Assembly: GCF_007859865.1 (NCBI RefSeq)
Contig: NZ_SJPI01000002.1
Coordinates: 1,570,721-1,634,720 of the forward strand
Reading direction: 5' to 3'
Source of the DNA: Rubripirellula amarantea
GTDB taxonomy: Bacteria; Planctomycetota; Planctomycetia; Pirellulales; Pirellulaceae
Length of the DNA: 64,000 bases
Under the pieces are notes generated by a model, which saw only the letters and a list, made by a program, of their open reading frames with translations, ran no database searches and had not been told where the DNA came from. Each line of letters starts with the position of its first letter. The first letter of the stretch is position 1. Of this stretch, positions 19,593-62,133 are shown piece by piece. The position numbers and the translations under genes were made by a program.

Positions 19593-20215
19593 CAGGGACT
19601 CCGGTGGGAAGGAGGCGGGAGCGGGAGGCAGGAAGGAATTCGATCCGAGACGAGAGATCGTACCACAGCAAAGAGCCGTCTACACGTTGCGGCAAGTCGG
19701 CTAGTTTAACCAGGAAGGCTGGCAACGGAATCATTCCCTTTTGCCGCTTCGGTCCTATTCACTTGTCGATTGCCAGTCGACACGGGGCCAAGCGAGAACA
19801 CTCGGGCAAAACACTCGGTCAATATCACTCGGGCAATATCACTTTGGCATAGTCACTCGCGGTTTCCGATCCGGCCCTTACTTTCGTTAGGACCGGTCCA
19901 AAACGACTTCGAACACGGACCGAACCGTTTGGCCGTTGATTCCCCGAGCCGATCAACGCTGCTGGTAAGGATGACAACCTACGGTTCAACCGGGTCATAT
20001 CAGCCTTTTGCGATGTTGTCCAACAAACACCAAGCAATCAGCTGAACAGTGTCCGGCCGGCGAAATCGCTCGGCAGCGACGGATTCATTGACTCATGTTC
20101 CCCATTTCGTAGCTCACCCCGCGTTGAACCGATTGCGATCGATCGCGAACGCTTGAACACCTGCACTATGCTTTGCATCGCAAAGCAATCGTGCGGGTTC
20201 CCATTGGCAATCCTC
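19593..20215. other. Divergent intergenic region between the esterase gene and the kinase gene
   Basis: About 620 bp between divergently transcribed genes, so it should hold both promoters. It contains the 14-bp tandem repeats at 19799-19859 and a G/A-rich patch at about 19605-19640 next to the esterase start. No gene is supported. The kinase frame extends in-frame back to 20153 without convincing protein features. Confidence 0.5.
19799..19859. repeat. Tandem repeat, about four 14-bp units
   Basis: Units start at 19799, 19812, 19826 and 19840, with a partial fifth at 19854; consensus CACTCGGGCAATAT. The first unit is 13 bp, the others 14. Similarity falls off in the fourth copy. The array lies in the divergent spacer, about 205 bp upstream of the esterase start. 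It has no coding sense. Confidence 0.85.
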
Positions 20216-23200
20216 ATGGCAATTCCTGAATCATCGAACTTCGACGAAACGAATCGCCCCGGCGATACGCCAAGCCGAAGTGATCGTGAGAAACGGTCGC
20301 CGGACGATGATTCAGCATCAAAGCTTCGTTCCCGACGGCGGCAGGGTCGTTCACGAAAGACGATTGACCAAGACGTTGTTCATGATGCCACTCTCGGATC
20401 GGACGCCGCCGAACGACCCAAGCCATCGCAAACAGAGTCCAGCCAGCCGCCCGCGGAATCCTCGACGGAAACATCGCCTTGCCCTGCGGTTAACGATTCG
20501 GTGCCTTCACGTTACGAAAGCGTAGGTGAGGTCGGTCGCGGAGGGTGGGGAGTAGTCGAAAAAGCAGTTGACCGCCAACTCGATCGCGAAGTCGCCGTGA
20601 AGCGGTTCACCGACACGTACGAGGTCACCGAGCAAGAACGTCAGCGATTCTTACACGAAGCGAAAGTCACCAGCCAGCTTCAGCATCCGGGTATTGTCCC
20701 GGTCCACGAGATGGGCGACCAAAAAGACGCCTACTATGTGATGAAGTTGCTCGATGGCGTGACGCTTCAAGAGTTCATCCAGCAACATCATTCCGACAAG
20801 TTGTCTCGAACGAAGCAAACGCGGTTCGAGTTCGGCGAAAAGCTCGAACCTCTGTTGCAACGCTTTGTCGATGTCTGCAATGCGGTCGCGTACGCGCACA
20901 AGCGCGGCGTGGTCCATCGCGATTTGAAGCCATCTAACGTGATGATTGGCGAATTTGGCGAAACGGTAGTCTTGGATTGGGGCTTGGCACACTCGCTTGA
21001 TGCAACGCCCGGTTTGGCCACCACCCCGCTGCCTGCGCGACGAAAGAATGTTCACGCTGATTCGACCCCGTTGATCGAGCCCGACGGAACCGTGGTCGGA
21101 ACGCCAGCCTACATGTCCCCGGAACAGGCGTCCGGCGAAATCTCAGCGATCAGCCAGCCATCGGACATCTATTCGCTTGGAATGATCCTGTACGCGATCG
21201 TCGCCGGGCGTCACCCTTACCAAGGGCAACCGGTCGAACAAATCCTGAAGCAAGTTCAATCGTCGAGTTACCCAAGCTTGCGATCGCTGCAGCCTTTAGC
21301 ACCATCGGCTTTGGTCTCGATCGTCGCCAAGGCCATGTCACGGTCGCCCGGGGATCGCTATGAGAGCGCAGAACTCTTAGCCAGCGACGTTCGACGATTC
21401 ATTGCTGGTGATTCGGTGTCGGTGCACCAAGAAAGCTTCATCGAAAAGAGTGTTCGGTGGTGCCGACATCACCAAGGAATTGCTGCAGCGGTGGCCGGCT
21501 GTGCTTCGGTATTGCTGGTCGGTGCGATTGTCTTCGGAATTGTGATTAAGCAATCGCATCGCGCCGAGCAGATCGCCCGTATCGAAGCTGAACAATCGCA
21601 TCGGGAAGCCATCCTTAGCTTGGGTGAGGCGCGCGAAGCAACCGATGCGTGGTTGATCGAGCTGAGCGGCTCCCTCCAGTTCTATCCGGGAATGGAAAAA
21701 CTACGTGGCGAACTGCTAGAACGCGCCATCCATCAATTCGATCGACTCGAGACCCAAAATTTAGCGTCGTCGCAAACGCAGACCGCTGATAGTGCTTCAG
21801 GGACGGCATCGAGTCCGAACGTCGACTCATCAGTAACGTATCGCGAGCATACCGATCAACTAGCAAAATTAGAGCGAGCCAAGGGAGCCTTGCGTCTGGG
21901 CGACCTCTATCGTTTAACAGGCAAGCCAAACCAAGCCAGGACGCACTACCAAGCCGCCGCTACGATCCTGCGAAAACACGATCAAGACCCTGCCCCACCT
22001 GCTTTGAACGTGACACCGGTCTCGTTGAGTGATACCGGGAAAATCGACAATCACACCGGTTCGGCAATCCAGGATGCGTACACACTCGAACGCGTCAACG
22101 CGATCATCGGGCTGCTCTTGTTGGCTGAAGACACCGAAACCGATCTACCATCAAGCCAAGAGATTACCGTTGCCCGCCGTTGGCTGCGCAGCGTGACCGA
22201 ACCGATTCACCGAGATACACTCCAAAGCGAGACTAACAGATCAGCGTTAGACAGCTATTCAGCTCGTTTGATCTCGGCCTTCGTGCGGATGGAAATGGCA
22301 TTGCAAAATGCTAAACCGCACGCACACGATCGCGTCGACGCGATGGGCAATGGTTCGTCGTTCGAAGATGCGGTGACGTTGGCCCGATGGTTGGCGGATC
22401 GAACTCAATCGCCGCGTGACCGCCGCCTATCCGAAACGATCCAGACGCAGAATTGCCGACAACTGGCCGATACGGGCCAGCACCACGATGCGTGGCAGCG
22501 CTGGAGCGTGCTGATCGACGACGTTCAACGATGGTCCGACAGCGACCCCGACCGCATTGACCTTTTGCAATCCTTAGGACACGCGCTGCTGCAACGAGGT
22601 AACTGCCAAGTTCAGTTGGGTAATCACGAGAACGCGACCGCTGACTTTGATCGTTCTATCCGCATGATCGAGAAGGCATGGCGATTAACGGACGACGACG
22701 GGTTCTATCGAATCAACTTGGCAACCGCCGAAAACAATCTTGGACAGTTACTGGCCACCGGAAAGAACCGCAACCCGGCGATGGCGACCAAGTTGCTTCG
22801 ACAGTCGCTCAAAACGTACGAAGCATTGCTACGCGAAGGCGTCACCGCGGATCGCCTGCGCCGCTACGCCCAAACTCATCATGCCTTAGCGGTACTCAGT
22901 TCACCGTCGAATTCCGCGGTGGATGTGGTCACCGAACAAGCCGTTGAGCACGCTCAGAAATCCGCATCCGCGTTTGAAATTCTTAGCGATTACGTTTCCC
23001 TTTCGGTGGACGACACGCTCGGTTGGATGCATTGCCAAGTCACGATCGCATCGCATCATGCCCAGCACGGAAGAATGAAACCCGTGGCAAGCATGCTGGA
23101 ACACCTTCGGCAACGCGAGCAGCAACTTGGGCAAACCGCCTTGAACGCCGTGCAAAGCCAAACACTACGAAGGGTGACCGATGCGATCGAGGTGTTCGAA

Positions 23201-23281
23201 GAGTCCATCGGGGCAACTGATTTGATCAGCACGACTGACACAGACGAGCCAACCGACATCGAAACTGACTTGGTCGATTAA
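20216..23281 (+). CDS. Membrane Ser/Thr protein kinase with C-terminal TPR-like region
   Basis: About 1021 residues from ATG 20216; the frame continues upstream to ATG 20168 and TTG 20153, and no ribosome-binding site decides between them. After a polar, low-complexity N-terminus (about 95 residues), a Hanks-type kinase domain follows: GRGGWGVV glycine loop, VAVK lysine, HRDLKPSNV catalytic loop, DWG in place of DFG, and GTPAYMSPEQ. A membrane helix AAVAGCASVLLVGAIVFGIVI comes at about residue 430. The extracytoplasmic 560 residues are helical and include TPR-like stretches such as RLGDLYRLTGKPNQARTHYQAAATIL. The kinase probably phosphorylates cytoplasmic proteins in response to an outside signal. 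The next gene, 137 bp downstream, has a phosphothreonine-binding FHA domain and is a natural candidate target. Confidence 0.9.
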   Translation: MAIPESSNFDETNRPGDTPSRSDREKRSPDDDSASKLRSRRRQGRSRKTIDQDVVHDATLGSDAAERPKPSQTESSQPPAESSTETSPCPAVNDSVPSRYESVGEVGRGGWGVVEKAVDRQLDREVAVKRFTDTYEVTEQERQRFLHEAKVTSQLQHPGIVPVHEMGDQKDAYYVMKLLDGVTLQEFIQQHHSDKLSRTKQTRFEFGEKLEPLLQRFVDVCNAVAYAHKRGVVHRDLKPSNVMIGEFGETVVLDWGLAHSLDATPGLATTPLPARRKNVHADSTPLIEPDGTVVGTPAYMSPEQASGEISAISQPSDIYSLGMILYAIVAGRHPYQGQPVEQILKQVQSSSYPSLRSLQPLAPSALVSIVAKAMSRSPGDRYESAELLASDVRRFIAGDSVSVHQESFIEKSVRWCRHHQGIAAAVAGCASVLLVGAIVFGIVIKQSHRAEQIARIEAEQSHREAILSLGEAREATDAWLIELSGSLQFYPGMEKLRGELLERAIHQFDRLETQNLASSQTQTADSASGTASSPNVDSSVTYREHTDQLAKLERAKGALRLGDLYRLTGKPNQARTHYQAAATILRKHDQDPAPPALNVTPVSLSDTGKIDNHTGSAIQDAYTLERVNAIIGLLLLAEDTETDLPSSQEITVARRWLRSVTEPIHRDTLQSETNRSALDSYSARLISAFVRMEMALQNAKPHAHDRVDAMGNGSSFEDAVTLARWLADRTQSPRDRRLSETIQTQNCRQLADTGQHHDAWQRWSVLIDDVQRWSDSDPDRIDLLQSLGHALLQRGNCQVQLGNHENATADFDRSIRMIEKAWRLTDDDGFYRINLATAENNLGQLLATGKNRNPAMATKLLRQSLKTYEALLREGVTADRLRRYAQTHHALAVLSSPSNSAVDVVTEQAVEHAQKSASAFEILSDYVSLSVDDTLGWMHCQVTIASHHAQHGRMKPVASMLEHLRQREQQLGQTALNAVQSQTLRRVTDAIEVFEESIGATDLISTTDTDEPTDIETDLVD

Positions 23282-23418
23282 TTAGCAACCCCGACATCGC
23301 TCACCAATCCGAGGGGTAACCCATGTTTGCAAAGCAGTCCGATACCATTTGTGCCGCAACCTACTTTCGCAACAAGCGCATCGACGAACCAAACCTACTC
23401 TAGAACTATCTCATCATC

Positions 23419-24387
23419 ATGACGAATTCAGCGCCAACGACTATCGATTCATTCCCGCCCGGATCCGACCATTCGCCCGTCGTATCAGCAACCACCAAGA
23501 ACACTCCGGTTGCCGAGGCGACACTGCGACGGCAACCGACTCCCGAACCAACCGTCGAAGTCAACGAATGCTGTTTAGTTCAAATCTATCCGGCCGACGT
23601 AATCACAGGGATGTTGTTGCTTGAGGAAGATGAGTTTTCCATCGGACGTTCGCCCGACACTGATTTGCCATTGTCAGACAGCAGCGTTTCGCGTCAGCAC
23701 GCCATGCTGATCCGCGGCAGCGAAGGTTACCTAGTTCGCGACCTGGGAAGCACTAACGGAACCTTAGTTAACGAACAAATCATTGAATCGGATTGCGTGC
23801 TACGCAGCGGCGACACGGTTCGTATCGGTAGCTTCTTGTTTCGATTCTTGTCCGCCGGTTCGGTGGAATCGCAGTACCACGAAACGGTCTACAGCGCGTT
23901 GACTCGTGATGCGCTAACGGGCACCATGAACAAGCGATACTTGCTGGATGCGATGGAACGCGAGATCTCTCGATCAACCCGAGCGAAGACCGACATGGCA
24001 GTGGTCATGCTGGACATTGATCACTTCAAGTCGGTCAACGACACTCACGGTCACTTAGTGGGCGACGAGGTGTTGCGAACGTTTGGCAAGCGAGTGGGTG
24101 ACATTTGCCGCACCGATGACTTGTTGGCTCGTTACGGCGGCGAAGAGTTCTGCTTGTTGCTTGCTGCGACCGGTCGCGAAGAAGCCGCGGAAATGGCTGA
24201 CCGCTGCCGCCGCGCTGTTGCCAGCGCTCCATTTGAAACCGCCGCCGGTCCCCTAGAAATCACGGCGAGCTTTGGATTCGCAGTGCTGAACCCCAACGAG
24301 CCAGCGACAACGAAGGGCTTGCTTGAACTCGCTGACCAACATCTCTACGAAGCCAAACGAGGCGGTCGCAATCGCGTGTGCGGTTAA
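23419..24387 (+). CDS. FHA-GGDEF protein: diguanylate cyclase controlled by a phosphopeptide-binding domain
   Basis: 322 residues. After a disordered N-terminus of about 50 residues comes an FHA domain (about 75-140) with all key motifs: FSIGRSPDTDLPL, SVSRQHAML and DLGSTNGTLVN. These bind phosphothreonine peptides. Residues about 160-320 form a GGDEF domain: DALTGTMNKRYL, VMLDIDHFKSVNDTHGHLVGD, and active-site RYGGEEF, so it should make cyclic di-GMP from two GTP. No RxxD inhibitory site stands directly before GGEEF (the residues there are DLLARY). No membrane helix is visible. It follows the Ser/Thr kinase on the same strand, which suggests that phosphorylation by that kinase is read by the FHA domain and changes cyclase activity. 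Confidence 0.93.
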   Translation: MTNSAPTTIDSFPPGSDHSPVVSATTKNTPVAEATLRRQPTPEPTVEVNECCLVQIYPADVITGMLLLEEDEFSIGRSPDTDLPLSDSSVSRQHAMLIRGSEGYLVRDLGSTNGTLVNEQIIESDCVLRSGDTVRIGSFLFRFLSAGSVESQYHETVYSALTRDALTGTMNKRYLLDAMEREISRSTRAKTDMAVVMLDIDHFKSVNDTHGHLVGDEVLRTFGKRVGDICRTDDLLARYGGEEFCLLLAATGREEAAEMADRCRRAVASAPFETAAGPLEITASFGFAVLNPNEPATTKGLLELADQHLYEAKRGGRNRVCG

Positions 24388-24454
24388 GCCAAGCGAACGA
24401 TTGTAAGATCACCAAAAGCGAAACGGGACCCGACCTAGCGATTGCAGTCGGCAG

Positions 24455-26914
24455 CTAGTACGTCAATTCCGCTCCGACATAGAACCCAAAACCAGGACGG
24501 TACACTCCGAGCCCAGATCGGTAATCGATGTGTTCTCGATAGAACTTATCGGTCACGTTTTCAATTCCGCTGGTGACCAGCAAGTGATCCCACCGTCGAT
24601 AGCTTCGAATGTTGTAGACGGTGAACCCCGGCGTTTCGATTTCCTGCAAGGTGCTGGCGACTCGATCTTGATTGTCAACGATCCGAGCTTCAAACTCGAT
24701 TCCCCAGTGTTCGTGAGTGGGGTCCTGGATCAGAAGTCCAACGCGTGCTTCCATGGGTGCGATCCCTGGAAGAGGTTCGGAATCGACGCTTCCATTGTCG
24801 CTTCGGTACGGCGATCCGGTGTGTCGTGATGGGTCAAGCCTTGAACGATCTCGCCCTTCGACGTAAGTCAGAATTCCGAACGTTGACACCATCGATGTCA
24901 GGTCCGCTTGAGCGTAGGTTTCAAACCCCATCAAGGTAGCAAGGTCCGTGTTGACGAACGACGCTCCCTGTTGAAACCCATCAATCGTTCCCGCAGGATC
25001 GAACAGGTCATAGGTGATGTAGTCCTGAATCCAGGCATGGTGACCGTGTAATCCTAGCGTCATGTCATCCGAGTCGTATTCGATTCCCACATCGCACTGA
25101 TATAACTTCTCGGAATCGAGTTGCGGGTCACCATCGAGGAATGTCAAACCACGCTGCAAAGACCCAATGAAAGTGTATTCAGCGTACATTTCCGTGAGCG
25201 TGGGTTGTCGCATCGCAAAGCCCGTCCCCGCATTGGTGCTCCATCCCCCACCAAGATCACGATTGGCGGTTAGGTACGCCGACCCCAACAAGAATTGTCG
25301 GTCCAGCGAGGATTCTTCCAGGACGCTAAGCGGCTCAGCTACACCTTGCACAATGTCGCGAGAGTCCGTGAACACTCCATCGATCCGAGTACCGGCGGTA
25401 ACAACCACATCATCGTTCCACTGCAGAATCCGCTCGGCGTAGACCCCAAAGTCCAACGCATCACTGCGAGGGATCGGGAAGTTGTTGTCGTTGGGGTCGG
25501 GATCATAGAAATCATACTCGTTGAGTTCTTGATTCAAATAAATCATGTCCGTACCGACCGAGAACTGCGAGCACGCCGTGATGAAGGATGATTCGAGTCG
25601 ATAGCCCGCCGAAAGTGCATCGCCGTCCGTCGTCGTGGAACCGTCCGCAGCACCGAGAAATGACGGCTGGAAAGCGTCAACGAGCGAAGGAATCTGTCGA
25701 GCCTTGCCTGGACGTTTAGTATCGCCTTCGAAGCGAGTTCGGTTGTACCACACCTCGGACGTGAAACGATCAGCGAAGCTAGGCGCGTCGTTGGTGTACG
25801 TGATCTCGTAACCGTCAGTGATCAGAAAATTCAGGTCCGTCACCAAACCCGGGAACTCTATGTCGGTTTGGTCCAAACGCAATGCATTGATTTCGATCTT
25901 CTGGTGATCGTCGATGTCAAATCCGTACGCGACAAACAGGTCACGAGACTTGTAACTTGATGGAATAAAGTAGTCATCCTGTCCGGTTTCGTAGTCGCTG
26001 CCAGTTCGGTGGCCATAGCTGATATGAAAACCGTAGTCGTCACTGCCGCCCCAAAACGATTGTCGTCCGTAGAACTGATCCCCGTTGGAATGATAGGTCC
26101 CACTGGTTGCCCCGTGACCTTCGTAGCCATTCTCGTAACGAGGCGATTGCAGGAATTCCATGTCGACAAACCGGAACCCCGGCCCGTACCGACTGGCGTA
26201 GGGACCTTTGATCAGAATCGAGTCTTGAATTAAACGCGAGTCGATCTTGCTCATCATCGTGTCCAAGTCCATTCGAGCGGGTGCCCAGTAGGACCCGGAT
26301 GCGAGGACTTGGCCTACGCGTTGGCCTCGAATTCGAGTGTCGCTGACGATGGGCGTGCGATTTTGAATGGAAACACCGTGCGCCGCCTTCGATCTTCGCA
26401 GCAAGTCACCCACGTCTGCGGTTCGTCTGCCCAATGCTTCTTCGCGAAAGACCGCGTCTGCGGCGGGTGAGAGCGAAAGCGTTTCGCGATCGGTGGGCAA
26501 GTCGTCAATCTGGTTGACCTCACCAAACAAGCTGGCGATTCGATGATCGGCTGCAAGTGCTGCGTTGTCCTTGTCGTTGGCAGCGACATCGCCTCGCTGC
26601 ACAGGTGGTTGCATTGCGGGTGGTTGTAGGACCGGCGGTTGCATCACGGGTCCCTGGACAACAGGTCCCTGGTTGATGGGCGCTTGCACTGCAGGGCCTT
26701 TGACTGCGGGGCCTTGTACTGCAGGGCCTTGTGCTTCAGGGCCTTGTACTACAGGGCCTTGTGCTTCAGGACCTAGCATTGCAGGCCCCTGCAATGCAGG
26801 AGCAAACTGTTGTGCTTGGAGCGCAACCGAATTCGATACGACGAGCAGCCCAGCCGTAAAGCTGGCCGCCCATCGCAACAAATTGCGTTCAGTGGTTGAA
26901 TGTGGTTGCGGCAT
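24455..26914 (-). CDS. TonB-dependent outer-membrane receptor with a Gln-Gly-Pro repeat linker
   Basis: 819 residues. A signal peptide (core WAASFTAGLLVVSNSVALQA, ending near residue 35) is followed at 38-106 by a repetitive linker of VxGPxxQ type units (see separate entry). Residues about 155-280 look like a TonB plug (GDLLRRSKAAHGVSIQNRTP, TRIRGQRVGQVLASGSYW, LIKGPYASRYGPGF). The remainder is an alternating-strand beta barrel rich in Tyr, Asp and Gly, ending in AELTY with the aromatic last residue usual for outer-membrane barrels. I do not see a classical N-terminal TonB box, so the linker may replace or precede it. The ligand is unknown. It lies 79 bp downstream of the beta-helix barrel gene on the same strand, probably one transcript. 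Confidence 0.87.
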   Translation of the reverse strand: MPQPHSTTERNLLRWAASFTAGLLVVSNSVALQAQQFAPALQGPAMLGPEAQGPVVQGPEAQGPAVQGPAVKGPAVQAPINQGPVVQGPVMQPPVLQPPAMQPPVQRGDVAANDKDNAALAADHRIASLFGEVNQIDDLPTDRETLSLSPAADAVFREEALGRRTADVGDLLRRSKAAHGVSIQNRTPIVSDTRIRGQRVGQVLASGSYWAPARMDLDTMMSKIDSRLIQDSILIKGPYASRYGPGFRFVDMEFLQSPRYENGYEGHGATSGTYHSNGDQFYGRQSFWGGSDDYGFHISYGHRTGSDYETGQDDYFIPSSYKSRDLFVAYGFDIDDHQKIEINALRLDQTDIEFPGLVTDLNFLITDGYEITYTNDAPSFADRFTSEVWYNRTRFEGDTKRPGKARQIPSLVDAFQPSFLGAADGSTTTDGDALSAGYRLESSFITACSQFSVGTDMIYLNQELNEYDFYDPDPNDNNFPIPRSDALDFGVYAERILQWNDDVVVTAGTRIDGVFTDSRDIVQGVAEPLSVLEESSLDRQFLLGSAYLTANRDLGGGWSTNAGTGFAMRQPTLTEMYAEYTFIGSLQRGLTFLDGDPQLDSEKLYQCDVGIEYDSDDMTLGLHGHHAWIQDYITYDLFDPAGTIDGFQQGASFVNTDLATLMGFETYAQADLTSMVSTFGILTYVEGRDRSRLDPSRHTGSPYRSDNGSVDSEPLPGIAPMEARVGLLIQDPTHEHWGIEFEARIVDNQDRVASTLQEIETPGFTVYNIRSYRRWDHLLVTSGIENVTDKFYREHIDYRSGLGVYRPGFGFYVGAELTY
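26597..26803 (-). repeat. In-gene 15-bp tandem repeats encoding (Q/K)GPxx pentapeptides
   Basis: Residues 38-106 of the TonB receptor are built of about 14 pentapeptides: first QGPAM/LGPEA/QGPVV-type units, later QPPVL/QPPAM-type units. At DNA level the unit is 15 bp with consensus CAGGGCCTTGTACTG on the plus strand. Neighbouring units are nearly identical, which points to recent slippage or unequal exchange. Confidence 0.85.
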
Positions 26915-26993: not shown

Positions 26994-29108
26994 CTAAGGA
27001 AACGTGTCGTTACCGTCTTCGTTACCCGATCCGGTATTGTTGTTGGCGGTTGCACTGTTGGCACCGTCGTAGCCAAAGTCACCATTGTCCTCGGCCACAT
27101 TGTTTGAAAACTCACCTGCCCCCGTGTTGTCCGTAAAGTCAAATCCGGACCCATCATTCTCGTTTGCTACGTTTGCCAGAAACTGCCCCTGGTTGGTAAC
27201 AAAGTCGAAACCTCCGCCTTCATTTCCAATCGAATAGTTTTCTTGAAAGAGTCCGAAGTTGTCTTCGAAATCGAAACCAACATCGCCGTTGTCATATGCG
27301 TAGTTCTCTTGAACGGTCCCGTTGTTGTCGGCGAAGTCAAAACCATACGATGCATTGTCGAAGGCGAGGTTCTCTTCGACGACGCCATTGTTGGCTGCGA
27401 ACGTAAATCCTTCTCCATCGTTATCCGCCGACAAGTTCCCAGCGATCGACCCCGTGTTGTCGAGGAAATCGAATCCGCTCTCGCCGTTTTCGTACGATTC
27501 GTTCTCGTCAAAGTTGCCAGAGTTATCGTCTGCGTAGAAACCGTATCCCTCGTTACGCAATGCTCGGTTGAACGATACCTCACCGTCATTGTCAAACAAG
27601 TCGAACCCATTTCCCTCGTTCCCGAGAGCGTTGTTTTGAACAAACAGTCCTTCGTTTTGCTCGATGTCGAAACCGTGCGATCCATTGTCGGTAGCGCGGT
27701 TATGAGCAATCACGCTGTCCGAATCCAAAGTACCGAACCGGAACCCGCTATCGTCAGCGCCGGTGACGTTGTTACCGATGATCAAGACGTCTTCTAAGTC
27801 AGCCAGACCACCGGACAATTCACTCGAAATGCCGTGCATACCGCCGAAGATATTGAAGCCCGAGATCACACTGTTGTCCGCCGTCAGGATTACCGACTCG
27901 GTGATATCTATTCCGTGAAGCTTCACTTTCGAGCCGAAAACAGCGTGAACGCCAGTGTCAGCTCCCTTTACGGCCAATCCACCGCCAAATAGTTGCTGTC
28001 CGTCCTGAACTTCGATGGCATCGGTGACTCGAATAACGCCCGCTCGACCATCGATAATCACCGAGTCGGTCGTGGCGGTGGCCACCGCCGTTGGCAGATC
28101 TGGCGTGTTGGCGTCGAGTACAGTAACCGAGCCGATTTCGAAATCATAAGTCGCGTGCAGAGCGACCTCTTGTCCGCCTGGTGTCGGGTTAGCCTGGGTC
28201 ACCACATCGACATCGCGGACCACCACGTCCGTCATGCGTCGTTCGATTCGTGTCATCCGTCGGTGGCGGCGACGATCCGGGCCGAATGGCATTCGAATGG
28301 AAAGCGTGCCAGCGGTTTGAGAATCACGCACGTCGTCGTGCTGGTACTGAACGCCAAATGTGACTCGAGAATCCAGCGATAAGAACGGTAAGTCGAACGA
28401 TCGCAGTTCGGCTCGAATTCGCGGTCCGGTAATTGATTCGGCTGTCGGCGAATCCGTATCGAAGTGATAGATTCCCGCGAACACTCGCAATTCGCTGTCG
28501 AAGTAGTTCGGGCACCGCCATAGCAACGACCCGACCTCGGCGTCAGTTCCATAGTAGGCACGCTCTTCGTTGTTCTGAACGACAAGGTTGCCGTTGGATA
28601 CGATAGCTGTGGCACCCACCGCTTGCGCCGAGCCGCCTTCGGGAAGATACCCGTTCCATCGGACATCGTACTTATCGCTCAGCATTTCCATGCCAAACGT
28701 AGCTTGATGAAAGGTGTTCTCGTTCGCAGAGTGCTTCAAGTCGTAGAAGCCGTAGACGCCGGCGATGTAGTCACCGGCAAATAGGTGACGGTAAGCGAGA
28801 CCCCAGTTGCCCTCGGCTCCACCGCCATAGGCAAACTGACCGCGGATATCGGCGAACAAGAGATCATCGTGCGTCGACGCGAGCGGTACAAACAAATCCG
28901 TGTGCACGCGGCTGACATCATCGCCGCGCCCCGTCAATGCAGCGTAAGGTCGGTAGGGATCACTTTCGATGGCCGGATTGAGCGGTCGACCGTCGAAGAC
29001 GTGCGATTCCAACGACTGAGCCTGCACCGACGAGATCGCGCAAAACGCGACCATTACGCAGCAGGCGACCTTCACGCGCGCTGAAACTTGCAGTTGCCAG
29101 TTCTGCAT
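26994..29108 (-). CDS. Outer-membrane protein: inverse-autotransporter-like barrel with right-handed beta-helix passenger
   Basis: 704 residues; GAGGAG four bases before ATG 29108 is a good ribosome-binding site. A signal peptide ends near AQS (residue 32). Residues about 45-290 resemble the intimin/invasin-type inverse-autotransporter barrel: TDLFVPLASTHDDLLFADIRG, NWGLAYRHLF, GVYGFYDLKHS, then DVRWNGYLPEGG. Residues 290-335 are a linker rich in Arg then Asp. From about 355 a beta-helix follows (VITDAIEVQDGQ, KVKLHGIDITESVIL, DNSVISGFNIFGG), and residues 470-690 are nearly perfect 22-residue coils with pattern NxAxDNxxxGFDFxDNxGxxxE. The barrel-first, passenger-last order is that of type Ve secretion. 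It probably displays an adhesive or ligand-binding rod; it may cooperate with the TonB receptor encoded 79 bp downstream. Confidence 0.78.
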   Translation of the reverse strand: MQNWQLQVSARVKVACCVMVAFCAISSVQAQSLESHVFDGRPLNPAIESDPYRPYAALTGRGDDVSRVHTDLFVPLASTHDDLLFADIRGQFAYGGGAEGNWGLAYRHLFAGDYIAGVYGFYDLKHSANENTFHQATFGMEMLSDKYDVRWNGYLPEGGSAQAVGATAIVSNGNLVVQNNEERAYYGTDAEVGSLLWRCPNYFDSELRVFAGIYHFDTDSPTAESITGPRIRAELRSFDLPFLSLDSRVTFGVQYQHDDVRDSQTAGTLSIRMPFGPDRRRHRRMTRIERRMTDVVVRDVDVVTQANPTPGGQEVALHATYDFEIGSVTVLDANTPDLPTAVATATTDSVIIDGRAGVIRVTDAIEVQDGQQLFGGGLAVKGADTGVHAVFGSKVKLHGIDITESVILTADNSVISGFNIFGGMHGISSELSGGLADLEDVLIIGNNVTGADDSGFRFGTLDSDSVIAHNRATDNGSHGFDIEQNEGLFVQNNALGNEGNGFDLFDNDGEVSFNRALRNEGYGFYADDNSGNFDENESYENGESGFDFLDNTGSIAGNLSADNDGEGFTFAANNGVVEENLAFDNASYGFDFADNNGTVQENYAYDNGDVGFDFEDNFGLFQENYSIGNEGGGFDFVTNQGQFLANVANENDGSGFDFTDNTGAGEFSNNVAEDNGDFGYDGANSATANNNTGSGNEDGNDTFP
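27102..27701 (-). repeat. In-gene 66-bp tandem repeats (nine 22-residue beta-helix coils)
   Basis: Codes for residues 470-669 of the barrel/beta-helix protein. Units begin at residues 470, 492, 514, 536, 558, 580, 602, 624 and 646; eight are exactly 22 residues and the last is 24. Each has Asn at position 1, Asn at 6, Gly-Phe at 10-11, Asn at 16 and Gly at 18. The regular Asn ladders and stacked Phe fit one beta-helix turn per unit, and the acidic surface suggests calcium or cation binding. Confidence 0.88.
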
Positions 29109-59067: not shown

Positions 59068-59268
59068 AGAGCAACTGATTTCTAACCGGTGCGTCTGCGT
59101 ACAGTTCCAGCTCAATCATGTGTAGTTAGCCTTAACGTAACGCCATCCACCAGCATTATAGGTCGCCAGAAGAATCGAAAACCGCTATTAAGTACACATC
59201 CAGACTTACTTGAGCCCCCCTTGCAGGCTAAAAAAGAGGTCCACAGTGACCTGTTCGGAAAATGTTCC

Positions 59269-62133
59269 ATGACTGCCCCCGCATCGCAACCGCCTGGCAA
59301 CGGAGATACGCCTCGCGCGTCTTCGTCGCCAAACTTGGATCCCGCGGACGATCTCGGTCAGAATAGCAAAGTCGAAGGGCAAAGCGATCCCGAAAGTGGT
59401 GAACGCACCGACACATCCGTCGACGGCACGATCGATCAGCTTGTCTCGCTAGATCTGACCATGGATGGCGAACAGATTGACGATACTGGGATGTCAACGT
59501 TGAAGGGAACAATGTCCATTGAGCTCTCCAGCGATATGGGCATGACCGAGGGGCCATTCGATCTCGGCGAAACGAGCACCAAGCATCCTCCCAAAGTCAG
59601 AGTTTCCAAGAAGTCGAAACAGCGAGCCAAAGCACTGCCAAAGAGAGTTGGCAAGTTCAAGATCAAGGCCGAGTTGGGAAGAGGTGCCTTTGGAGTGGTG
59701 TACCTGGGCTTTGATGACGAACTCAATCGCAATGTCGCGATCAAAGTTTCGATCGTTTCGGATCGTGATCGCCAAGAGAGACTTAAGACTGAGGCAGCCA
59801 AAGCAGCACAGGTCGAAAGCCCAGGTATCGTGCCGGTCTATCACATTGGCACAACCGAAGACGGTTCCGTTTACTTTGTGCAGAAATACATTCCAGGTTA
59901 CTCGCTACGAGATGCATTAAGGCAAAGCCCGCTTTCGCCGATACGAGCCACTGCACTGGTGCACTCGCTGGCAATCGCACTCGTTCCCGCCCATCGTCAA
60001 GATGTCCTGCACCGCGACCTCAAACCAGACAACGTGTTGATAGACGAAGAGGGGCGTCCTTGGATTGCCGACTTTGGATTGGCAATCTCAGAGAGCGAAC
60101 TTTCCAGCAGCCGTCGCGAACTTGCTGGCACACCGCCCTACATGTCGCCCGAGCAGATCAAAGGTCGCACCGACTTCCTTGACCAACGTTCAGACATCTG
60201 GGCGCTCGGCGTGATCTATTACGAATGTCTAACTGGCAAGCTTCCCTTCCAGGGCAAGACTCGCCAAACCATCACCGAGCAAATTTGCGAACGTGACCCT
60301 AAACCCCTCCAGCAGCATGCACCAGGTTTGCTGACCGAAGAGATCAACAACGTTTTTCTCAAAGCCTGTGCTAAACAACCATCGGATCGATACGCCACTA
60401 CGGCCGACTTGGCTACTGCTTTGGAGTCACTTATCGCTAACGGGCTGAGTGAACAGAACATTCGCGGCGAAAGTATGCCTGGGCTGCTCGGCCAAAGTTC
60501 GATCGACTTCAACACTCGGCGATCGCTTTCGACGCACCAATCCACCGGCGTCTCCCTATCGTCTCATTCAACTCGATCAAGCATCGAGTCAACATCAACG
60601 AGCACAAGGATTGGCCGAGGGATTGGACTGCTTCAGAAGCTGCTCGGGCTCGTGTTCATCATCGGTCTATCGTTAGCGGCCAACCTTGCCTATCAAAAGT
60701 TCAACGTGACTGAGTCGACCAAATCCACCGCAACGGACGGTTCGGATGATGCCACCGCATCCATCGCCACGGATCCCGTCCTCGCAGCGACATTGCCCAT
60801 GGTCGAGGCGATTGTAGAACCCGACAACGAACCTGAACCAACGCCAGAACCCGAACCGATCCCAATGCCAAGTGGGACCGAAGATGATCCCATGCTGGTT
60901 TCCACGACTGGAAATGGCTCTCATTCTACGATCGAATCCGCCATCAACGACGCACCCGTCAACGGGTTCATCCGCGTCGGCCCCGGGGACTACGAAGAAT
61001 CACTGAGGGTAACAAAACCGATCACGATTCTAGGACCGACTCGAGTTCGAGGTGAGATCCAGTGCCGGATCGGCAATCAGCTTGAATCCGTCATTTTCGC
61101 CGAGAGCCCAACGGGAAAAATCACGTTCAAAGACGTTCGTATCGAAGGCAAGGGAACTCAGATGACCAACGAGTTCAATGCCATTGAAATATCCCAAGGC
61201 ACCTTCGTCATGGTTGACTGCGAGGTCACCACCAGCAGCTACAACGGCGTGAAGGTGCGGAAAGGATCCACCTTTGGTGCCCAAGGATGCAAGTTCTTTG
61301 ATTCGCGAACCTTTGCCGTCTCGGGAAAGCAGCATGAAGATATTCAACTGGTCAATTGCGACTTTCGAAATTCTGGCGTCGAACTGGTGAGCGGAAAGGG
61401 TCGAGTCTTGAAGTGCCGTTTCTATGGCGAGAAGGGCGTGTGGTGCAGCGATCAGGAGAGCCTTGTTTCGGTTGAACAGTGTCATTTCACCAAAACTCGA
61501 TCCGATAGCACCCAGGCTCGTGCGGGCGCAACCCTTCAACTGTCTGATTCCACCTTCCTGGATTGCGAAACAGCGATTCGTGTTTCCGATGCGACTGTTG
61601 TCGCTTCGAAGTGCACCATGCAGAACGCCACCGTTGCCGTTGGCGTCGGCGGCTTAGATGCGACCTCGGACATTACGTTAACAAATTGCGAAATCGACGG
61701 GGGTAAAGTTGGGATTGATCAGGCTTCGGGAAAGCTATTGATCGATGGTGGTTCAGTGACTCATTGCACCACCACCGCGATCTTGTTCACTTCTGAAGAC
61801 GAGCAAAGCCATGACGTGAGTGGTTTAATTCGCAACTGTACGCTGCAATCCAAAGGCCAAATCGTTCGACTCAGCTATGGCGAACTCGACCTTCAAAATG
61901 TTTTGATCAAAAGTTTTGAAACCACTTTCGGAATTTTTGCGAAGACGACTATGCATGAGAATGCCAAGGTTAATCTTCTTTGTGACTCGTCGGTCGATTT
62001 CGAAGGTGACTTTGACTATTGCCTGTTTGCCCAAGGTGAGGTGACAATTCGGCTCGACAATGAATTGCGCACCCGAATGGCCGAGAATGGTCGACGAGCG
62101 GCCTTGCTGCCCAATGCCGTGTACGTAGATTGA
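59269..62133 (+). CDS. Ser/Thr receptor kinase with C-terminal right-handed beta-helix
   Basis: 954 residues from ATG 59269; the frame opens 60 codons earlier but that part is not protein-like. A polar N-terminus (1-120) precedes a full Hanks kinase domain: GRGAFGVV, VAIK, HRDLKPDNV near residue 247, DFGLA, GTPPYMSPEQ and SDIWALGVIYYECLTG. A linker and one membrane helix (LLGLVFIIGLSLAANLAY, about 460-478) follow, then a Pro/Glu-rich stalk (EPEPTPEPEPIPMP). Residues about 540-930 form a parallel beta-helix: SHSTIESAINDAPVNGFIRVGPGDYEESLRV and repeated strands with DC, NC and SxF turns. The helix probably faces the periplasm and binds a glycan or protein, signalling to the kinase. The M28-type gene follows 9 bp downstream. 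Confidence 0.9.
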   Translation: MTAPASQPPGNGDTPRASSSPNLDPADDLGQNSKVEGQSDPESGERTDTSVDGTIDQLVSLDLTMDGEQIDDTGMSTLKGTMSIELSSDMGMTEGPFDLGETSTKHPPKVRVSKKSKQRAKALPKRVGKFKIKAELGRGAFGVVYLGFDDELNRNVAIKVSIVSDRDRQERLKTEAAKAAQVESPGIVPVYHIGTTEDGSVYFVQKYIPGYSLRDALRQSPLSPIRATALVHSLAIALVPAHRQDVLHRDLKPDNVLIDEEGRPWIADFGLAISESELSSSRRELAGTPPYMSPEQIKGRTDFLDQRSDIWALGVIYYECLTGKLPFQGKTRQTITEQICERDPKPLQQHAPGLLTEEINNVFLKACAKQPSDRYATTADLATALESLIANGLSEQNIRGESMPGLLGQSSIDFNTRRSLSTHQSTGVSLSSHSTRSSIESTSTSTRIGRGIGLLQKLLGLVFIIGLSLAANLAYQKFNVTESTKSTATDGSDDATASIATDPVLAATLPMVEAIVEPDNEPEPTPEPEPIPMPSGTEDDPMLVSTTGNGSHSTIESAINDAPVNGFIRVGPGDYEESLRVTKPITILGPTRVRGEIQCRIGNQLESVIFAESPTGKITFKDVRIEGKGTQMTNEFNAIEISQGTFVMVDCEVTTSSYNGVKVRKGSTFGAQGCKFFDSRTFAVSGKQHEDIQLVNCDFRNSGVELVSGKGRVLKCRFYGEKGVWCSDQESLVSVEQCHFTKTRSDSTQARAGATLQLSDSTFLDCETAIRVSDATVVASKCTMQNATVAVGVGGLDATSDITLTNCEIDGGKVGIDQASGKLLIDGGSVTHCTTTAILFTSEDEQSHDVSGLIRNCTLQSKGQIVRLSYGELDLQNVLIKSFETTFGIFAKTTMHENAKVNLLCDSSVDFEGDFDYCLFAQGEVTIRLDNELRTRMAENGRRAALLPNAVYVD

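Follow-up and report, generated by a model that had tools for sequence, protein, structure and literature searches.

What does it mean when a serine/threonine (Ser/Thr) kinase gene stands directly before the gene of a diguanylate cyclase that carries a phosphothreonine-binding FHA domain? The question is raised by a 64,000-nucleotide stretch of the genome of Rubripirellula amarantea (NZ_SJPI01000002.1, positions 1,570,721 to 1,634,720; hereafter the window), which is part of contig C2 of a 6.9-Mb genome that is 99.6% complete. In the window, an intact gene for a Hanks-type Ser/Thr kinase (20216-23281) is followed on the same plus strand, after a gap of 137 bp, by an intact gene for an FHA-GGDEF cyclase (23419-24387). 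A first-pass annotation made from the sequence alone had described this pair, and coordinates, Pfam matches, and motifs all agree with it. The annotation had also proposed that the kinase signal is converted to cyclic di-GMP (c-di-GMP). We consider such a route reasonably probable in a specific form, in which the kinase would act through phosphorylation of one threonine (Thr35) in the tail of the cyclase itself. This reading draws on the genes, their intact motifs, the conservation of Thr35, and an adjacency of kinase and cyclase that is both conserved and convergently evolved.

Both proteins retain their characteristic motifs. In the kinase, Pfam recognized the Pkinase domain (E = 1.8e-38, residues 100 to 390), and string searches located a glycine loop (GRGGWG, 107), the catalytic lysine (AVK, Lys129), HRD (Asp236), a DFG-like DWG (Asp254), and an APE-like SPE (residues 301 to 303), the set expected of Hanks-type (PknB-like) kinases. 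An alternative TTG start at 20153 would add 21 amino acids. In the cyclase, Pfam recognized an FHA domain (6.4e-20, residues 74 to 137) and a GGDEF domain (7.4e-46, residues 163 to 319). String searches placed the GRS, SxxH, and TNG motifs of the FHA domain at G76-R77-S78, S91-R-Q-H94, and S111-T112-N113-G114 and the GGEEF motif at residues 240 to 244, all intact as first described, together with an RxxD product-inhibition site (RTDD, residues 231 to 234). The cyclase thus has the DgcB-type architecture, with an N-terminal FHA domain fused to a C-terminal GGDEF domain and an intact GG(D/E)EF motif, and its best PDB match by sequence is DgcB of Bdellovibrio (6hbz, E = 3.8e-50 over residues 60 to 320). 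An AlphaFold model of the cyclase built from 39 sequences (mean predicted local distance difference test score [pLDDT], 88; predicted template modeling score, 0.71; tail disordered) also had 6hbz as its top Foldseek match. The TM-score of 0.49 and root mean square deviation of 13.6 in that comparison are taken to mean that the two domains may be packed differently in the model.

The strongest clue to the target of the kinase lies in the tail that precedes the FHA domain. Among planctomycete cyclases this tail varies in length and sequence, and one threonine is kept, Thr35 of the window protein (within EATLRR). From a sample of 149 genomes of the family, we assembled 60 FHA-GGDEF loci, namely the window and 59 others, of which 15 form a set of orthologues (group A, the window and L050 to L063). 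In an alignment of 20 rows, the Thr35 column holds threonine in all 14 aligned group A orthologues, always with Asp or Glu at position -2 and 18 to 19 residues from the LVQIYP strand. It is the only position among tail residues 20 to 51 that is identical in all 14. The fifteenth member, L059, whose tail was read separately from this alignment, has a threonine at the same distance with Asn at -2. L066 has Ala in the Thr35 column, which may be a misalignment, and contains a threonine at the usual distance within PEIT.

The same residue recurs over a much wider range. A cross-phylum alignment of 39 proteins, consisting of the window protein (P0001) and 38 of 80 loci (34 were excluded for lack of a full FHA-GGDEF open frame and 8 for an open frame of 345 amino acids or longer), has threonine at the Thr35 column in 37. 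In the two exceptions, L147 (GTLVL) and L155 (GTLIL), a threonine stands two residues earlier, so that misalignment, and not a real substitution, may explain them. The threonine of DKTSVV in L171, a Bdellovibrionales protein, aligns to Thr35 as well. In an alignment-free count, a threonine lies 16 to 21 residues before the first FHA strand at 36 of 36 family loci with a linked kinase and at 18 of 22 without a kinase, a range that was chosen after the data had been seen, with four loci that lack the anchor (L072, L077, L085, and L100) read by eye. The four kinase-free loci that lack such a threonine are L064, L065, L082, and L097; of the two loci whose only kinase is distant, L105 contains such a threonine and L095 lacks it. 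L064 and L065 share a different neighborhood, with genes for proteins of 303, about 440, and about 1080 amino acids downstream on the opposite strand.

Because the kept threonine matches the residue read by the FHA domain of DgcB, the likely target of the kinase is the cyclase's own tail at Thr35 rather than the activation loop of the kinase. Given adjacency and conservation together, the neighboring kinase is likely to be the enzyme that phosphorylates it. The first-pass annotation had cast the FHA domain, with its binding residues intact, as a phosphothreonine reader, but the ligand had been sought in the activation loop, where we now favor the tail.

Adjacency to a kinase is conserved among these cyclase genes in the family sample; one of the two observations that the first-pass annotation had named as refuting its reading, a lack of conserved adjacency, is thus not what we see. 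Among the 60 family loci, a same-strand kinase lies within 200 bp upstream in 15 and within 200 bp downstream in 9; a divergent kinase is found at up to 371 bp in 4, and at 8 the kinase is separated from the cyclase by a receptor gene (kinase fragments under 180 amino acids, as in L076, were left out of this tabulation). When counted by gene position at 59 of the 60 loci (L088 dropped out of the gene caller), kinases occupied 27 of 114 positions at -1/+1, 7 of 104 at -2/+2, and 4 of 274 at three or more genes away. The Fisher P value of 4e-12 for these counts is not a true probability, because the loci are related and the counts are not independent. Relatives of the C-terminal region of the kinase (E up to 1e-10) were found in 15 of the 149 genomes, each with an FHA-GGDEF gene no more than about 5 kb away. 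Stop and start codons of kinase and cyclase overlap by 4 bases in L090 and L094, by 8 bases in L091, and by 4 bases in L073 if that kinase starts at ATG, which suggests that the two genes may be translationally coupled at these loci. In the window, neither a promoter-like nor a terminator-like site turned up when 23200-24600 was scanned by a simple method, a weak hint that the pair may be cotranscribed.

The pairing also seems to have arisen more than once, because the adjacent kinases fall into at least three separate clades of a quick tree of 82 kinase domains, computed without bootstrap. One clade (99) consists of the window kinase with 13 orthologues, and a wider clade (92) adds the kinases of L068, L069, L070, L078, L079, L086, and L093. 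A separate clade (100) comprises L071, L072, L074, and L083, which lie beside other FHA-GGDEF genes. Another (81, inside 98) unites L080, L088, L090 to L092, and L094 with the kinase of a paralogous pair in the window's own genome (row L230). In that second pair (L073 7438-9587; C1:2508452-2510280 of G000, the window's genome), an FHA-GGDEF gene 49% identical to that of the window overlaps the gene of a kinase that belongs to a different lineage, in reversed gene order. On a tree of the FHA-GGDEF proteins, kinase presence changes at least 10 times; this tree resolves its deep branches poorly and lacks a clean outgroup, and it was used for these changes only.

The first-pass annotation had portrayed a unit of two genes, and its account of the locus included neither the tail threonine nor the RxxD site. 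Kinase and cyclase are confirmed, but the unit is larger, since a protein resembling TonB-dependent receptors, likewise outside that account, belongs to it too. This protein, encoded on the minus strand at 24455-26914, matches PF00593 (1e-19), and the barrel is present in 12 of 12 homologues. The PF07715 plug gave a weak match (E up to 0.01) in 3 of the 12, with the window receptor (P0003) not among them, and receptor residues 159 to 251 are strongly conserved and plug-like by eye. Of the 15 group A loci, 10 contain a homologue, whose position and strand vary among three arrangements: between kinase and cyclase (L054, L055, L056, L062, and L063), downstream of the cyclase in the same orientation (L058 and L060), or convergent with the cyclase (the window, L051, and L052). 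At L050 the contig ends, and presence is not assessable there. A receptor also accompanies kinase and cyclase in L081 (split into two open frames), L089 (where it is encoded on the opposite strand), L093, and L133, the last with kinase, receptor, and cyclase in a row. Across the 149 genomes, 44 have a receptor homologue at E up to 1e-30 and 96 have some PF00593 protein. In the window's own genome the receptor is the only PF00593 match, and TonB was not detected by PF03544 (control positive in 3 of 14 genomes) or PF13103 (control positive in 1 of 14), although a divergent TonB could escape both. One TonB-dependent-receptor barrel thus stands in a genome with no detectable TonB, which would argue against a classical transporter role.

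Taken together, these elements can be assembled into a tentative sequence of events. The kinase would sit in the inner membrane, its catalytic domain in the cytoplasm and its TPR-like region on the other side, the topology that we infer. Once stimulated, possibly via the neighboring outer-membrane receptor-like protein, it would phosphorylate the cyclase at Thr35, within the flexible tail at the N terminus. The phosphorylated tail would then be bound by the FHA domain of the cyclase itself, within or between subunits, and its capture would allow two GGDEF domains to meet through a rearrangement of the dimer, so that c-di-GMP could be made until the RxxD site shuts the enzyme off and limits the product. 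The recognition and activation steps are carried over by analogy from work on DgcB. That the receptor provides the input of the kinase, as gene order would suggest, is a tentative proposal that may well prove wrong. We regard as somewhat unlikely the fuller version, in which a TonB-dependent-receptor-like protein, in a genome without detectable TonB, serves purely as an outer-membrane sensor and signals through the periplasmic TPR region of a Hanks kinase to cyclase-tail phosphorylation and c-di-GMP, with the pairing assembled several times.

Several observations weigh against this proposal. The hydrophobic residue at +3 after the tail threonine, which matters in DgcB according to the accessible part of its description (PMC6733907), is absent: the window protein has Arg38, and the 14 aligned orthologues include R in 7, H in 4, and Q in 2. 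We still class the cyclase as DgcB-type, because the +3 residue is a specificity feature reported for DgcB and not part of the definition of the architecture. AlphaFold leaves the tail disordered, with a mean pLDDT of about 46 to 60 in its blocks. Another set of FHA-GGDEF proteins, group C, keeps the tail threonine mostly without a neighboring kinase, and the threonine therefore does not need one. Although conserved and repeatedly evolved adjacency supports a link from kinase to c-di-GMP, adjacency is not universal: at 22 of the 60 family loci the fetched DNA, which at several of them is truncated by a contig end, contains no kinase gene, and at 2 the only kinase is distant. L059, the orthologue that keeps the threonine without the acidic -2 residue, belongs to these 22. 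Beyond the family, kinases are seldom found next to the cyclase. In a survey of 46 FHA-GGDEF loci covering two genes on each side, and setting apart L133 (Rhodopirellula sp. JC639) and L134 (a Planctomycetaceae metagenome-assembled genome), which belong to planctomycete groups of the family sample, only L162 has a same-strand kinase next door; L158 has one next door on the opposite strand, and L164 and L184 have one two genes away. At high score, the orthologue was missing from all five other sampled genomes of the genus, where the best scores are at the level of GGDEF-only proteins or, in G131, of the paralogue, and the module is therefore accessory. As for the receptor, no orthologue was found in the fetched DNA at L053, L057, L059, and L061, and no STN family was among the matches of the 12 receptor members at E up to 0.01.

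Of the alternatives, the one that fares best takes kinase and receptor as the real unit, concerned with uptake or envelope control, to which the cyclase would be an optional output or phospho-reader, for instance in metal or haem acquisition. We examined receptor loci without a known FHA-GGDEF neighbor, fetching 20 of 63 listed matches (weaker ones and G120:C890 were left out). The receptor gene directly follows a same-strand kinase gene at 7 of the 20 and lies near a kinase at 2 more, and all nine of these kinases join those of group A in a clade with a support of 98 that also holds four other kinases of the window's own genome, where L244 to L247 are close to group A. The receptor profile moreover matches OprC (called a copper transport protein) and PhuR (haem). 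However, that match covers the barrel and part of the plug and allows no substrate to be read; since it identifies no ligand, we do not claim copper or haem as the substrate. The failure to detect TonB also counts against an uptake unit, as do the 11 of the 20 loci that show no kinase, several of them on short contigs. On balance, we judge this explanation unlikely.

A second alternative retains the cyclase as the partner and changes the ligand: the FHA domain would bind phosphothreonine on the kinase, either in its activation loop or in the N-tail motif HDATLGSD, and thereby bring the cyclase to the membrane and activate it, with tail phosphorylation secondary or absent. In mycobacteria, the FHA domain of GarA anchors this protein to PknB ahead of phosphorylation of the GarA tail, and docking here would resemble that case. 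The activation loop has several threonines, and a motif of an acidic residue, any residue, T, I or L, and G recurs, as T-[IL]-G-[SP], in the N-tails of several orthologous kinases. Against this, the motif was not seen in the orthologous kinases of L053, L057, L061, L062, and L063, and a looser form (D/E-x-T-L/I/M) occurs in 23 of 46 other kinase tails; we keep HDATLGSD as a lead only and not as a specific docking site. Thr35 of the cyclase is far better conserved, and we consider docking in place of tail phosphorylation improbable. The two models are compatible, so docking on the kinase could equally be added to capture of the tail. An AlphaFold docking of Thr35 on the FHA domain was dropped, and the model is uninformative on tail binding because of the low pLDDT of the tail. 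Least probable is the absence of any direct link, in which shared ancestry or a mobile accessory island would hold the genes together while the kinase acts elsewhere; kinase neighbors are fairly common in a genome with 68 Pkinase matches (some of them pieces of one gene), kinase-free loci exist, and the locus is patchy within the genus, but chance neighbors fit poorly with the concentration of kinases next to the cyclase, with several separate kinase lineages in that place, and with gene order that was reshuffled while the partners were retained.

The features of the locus are collected in Table 1.

Table 1. Features of the kinase-cyclase-receptor locus, in window coordinates
Feature	Position	Strand	Basis
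Transmembrane Hanks-type Ser/Thr kinase, 1021 amino acids (ATG start)	20216..23281	+	Pfam Pkinase 1.8e-38; PknB as best PDB relatives; catalytic motifs intact
Kinase N-tail motif HDATLGSD, residues 56-63, possible site of autophosphorylation or FHA docking (weak)	20381..20404	+	Similar T-[IL]-G-[SP] in several orthologous kinases
Kinase catalytic domain, residues 100-390	20513..21385	+	Pfam
Single strong predicted transmembrane segment, kinase residues about 421-447	21476..21556	+	Hydropathy scan
TPR-like region at the kinase C terminus, residues 481-1021, with a possible sensor role in the periplasm under the predicted topology	21656..23278	+	TPR matches
FHA-GGDEF diguanylate cyclase, 322 amino acids, DgcB-type	23419..24387	+	Pfam; PDB 6hbz E 3.8e-50; Foldseek top match 6hbz
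Thr35 codon, predicted phospho-acceptor and FHA ligand	23521..23523	+	Conserved tail threonine in alignments
Cyclase FHA domain, residues 74-137, phosphothreonine-binding residues intact	23638..23829	+	Pfam, motif search
RTDD product-inhibition (I) site of cyclase	24109..24120	+	String search
GGEEF active site of cyclase	24136..24150	+	String search
TonB-dependent-receptor-like outer-membrane protein, 819 amino acids, Pro-rich N-terminal repeats	24455..26914	-	PF00593; travels with the kinase-cyclase pair

Other genes in the window and elsewhere touch on the same themes. Beyond the receptor gene, 26994-29108 on the minus strand encodes a 704-amino-acid protein with a right-handed beta-helix (PF13229) and an N-terminal part that is barrel-like by eye; in L051 and L052 the receptor gene is followed by a homologue. 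The window holds a further kinase gene at 59089-62133 on the plus strand (1014 amino acids; kinase domain at C2:1630379-1631122). At C1:21338-22480 and C2:456791-458008 of the same genome, FHA and kinase matches fall in open frames of equal reported length, which suggests FHA-kinase fusion proteins. Within group C, L098 to L102, L104, and L106 to L108 have a conserved tail threonine, mostly in GTLR, and no kinase in the fetched DNA, and their relatives L103 and L105 have a kinase next door or at a distance.

Phosphothreonine-gated synthesis of c-di-GMP by FHA-GGDEF enzymes is already known in principle. What is new here is the conserved Thr35, a predicted acceptor, the conserved and repeatedly evolved adjacency of a kinase, and the receptor as a third partner. 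The locus offers a candidate kinase-substrate pair with one predicted acceptor residue, which makes the step missing from the DgcB account directly testable; the second pair in the same genome, with its different kinase lineage, adds to this. If the receptor is indeed the input, an outer-membrane receptor would signal through a Hanks kinase to c-di-GMP. In the literature searched, with most subscription journals outside it, we found neither a case of such signaling nor a paper on kinase-cyclase-receptor loci in planctomycetes.

Among known systems, FecA-FecR-FecI offers a precedent for the receptor: an outer-membrane receptor of the TonB-dependent type signals to an inner-membrane partner, as proposed here, and the output is a sigma factor. 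The window locus differs: its receptor has no STN domain, and the scheme proposed here would have a Hanks kinase as transducer and c-di-GMP, not a sigma factor, as output. GarA and OdhI, FHA proteins that are associated with PknB and PknG and control metabolic enzymes, were detected as FHA relatives of the window cyclase by PDB sequence comparison and differ from it in having no GGDEF domain. Like the window cyclase, they combine an FHA domain with a threonine in their own N-terminal tail, as set out in the available text on DgcB (PMC6733907). A survey from 2005, in the portion available, describes a Clostridium thermocellum protein that combines a kinase with TPR repeats and GGDEF, and notes clustering of FHA and kinase genes in Mycobacterium tuberculosis (PMC1262709). 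Another paper contains the words FHA, GGDEF, and planctomycete and, from its accessible text, concerns other systems (PMC7159879). A fusion from Sorangium, known here by its description in the DgcB paper, carries kinase, tail, FHA, and GGDEF segments arranged as in the window's kinase and cyclase (PMC6733907); it is one fused protein rather than two genes, and that description mentions no receptor.

The closest counterpart remains DgcB (Bd0742, 6hbz) of Bdellovibrio bacteriovorus, which resembles the window cyclase in its FHA-GGDEF architecture, GGEEF motif, RxxD site, and tail threonine before the FHA domain. According to the accessible parts of the report (PMC6733907), its FHA domain was crystallized together with a synthetic phosphopeptide that spans threonine 14 of the DgcB tail, an I-site mutant became strongly active when a disulfide fixed the tail to the FHA domain, and the phosphomimetic substitution T14D had barely any effect. 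The tails differ in sequence, EKTSIV in DgcB and EATLRR in the window cyclase, the latter without a hydrophobic +3 residue. The authors of that report propose a kinase that phosphorylates the tail without, in those parts, identifying it (PMC6733907), whereas the window cyclase has a conserved kinase next door.

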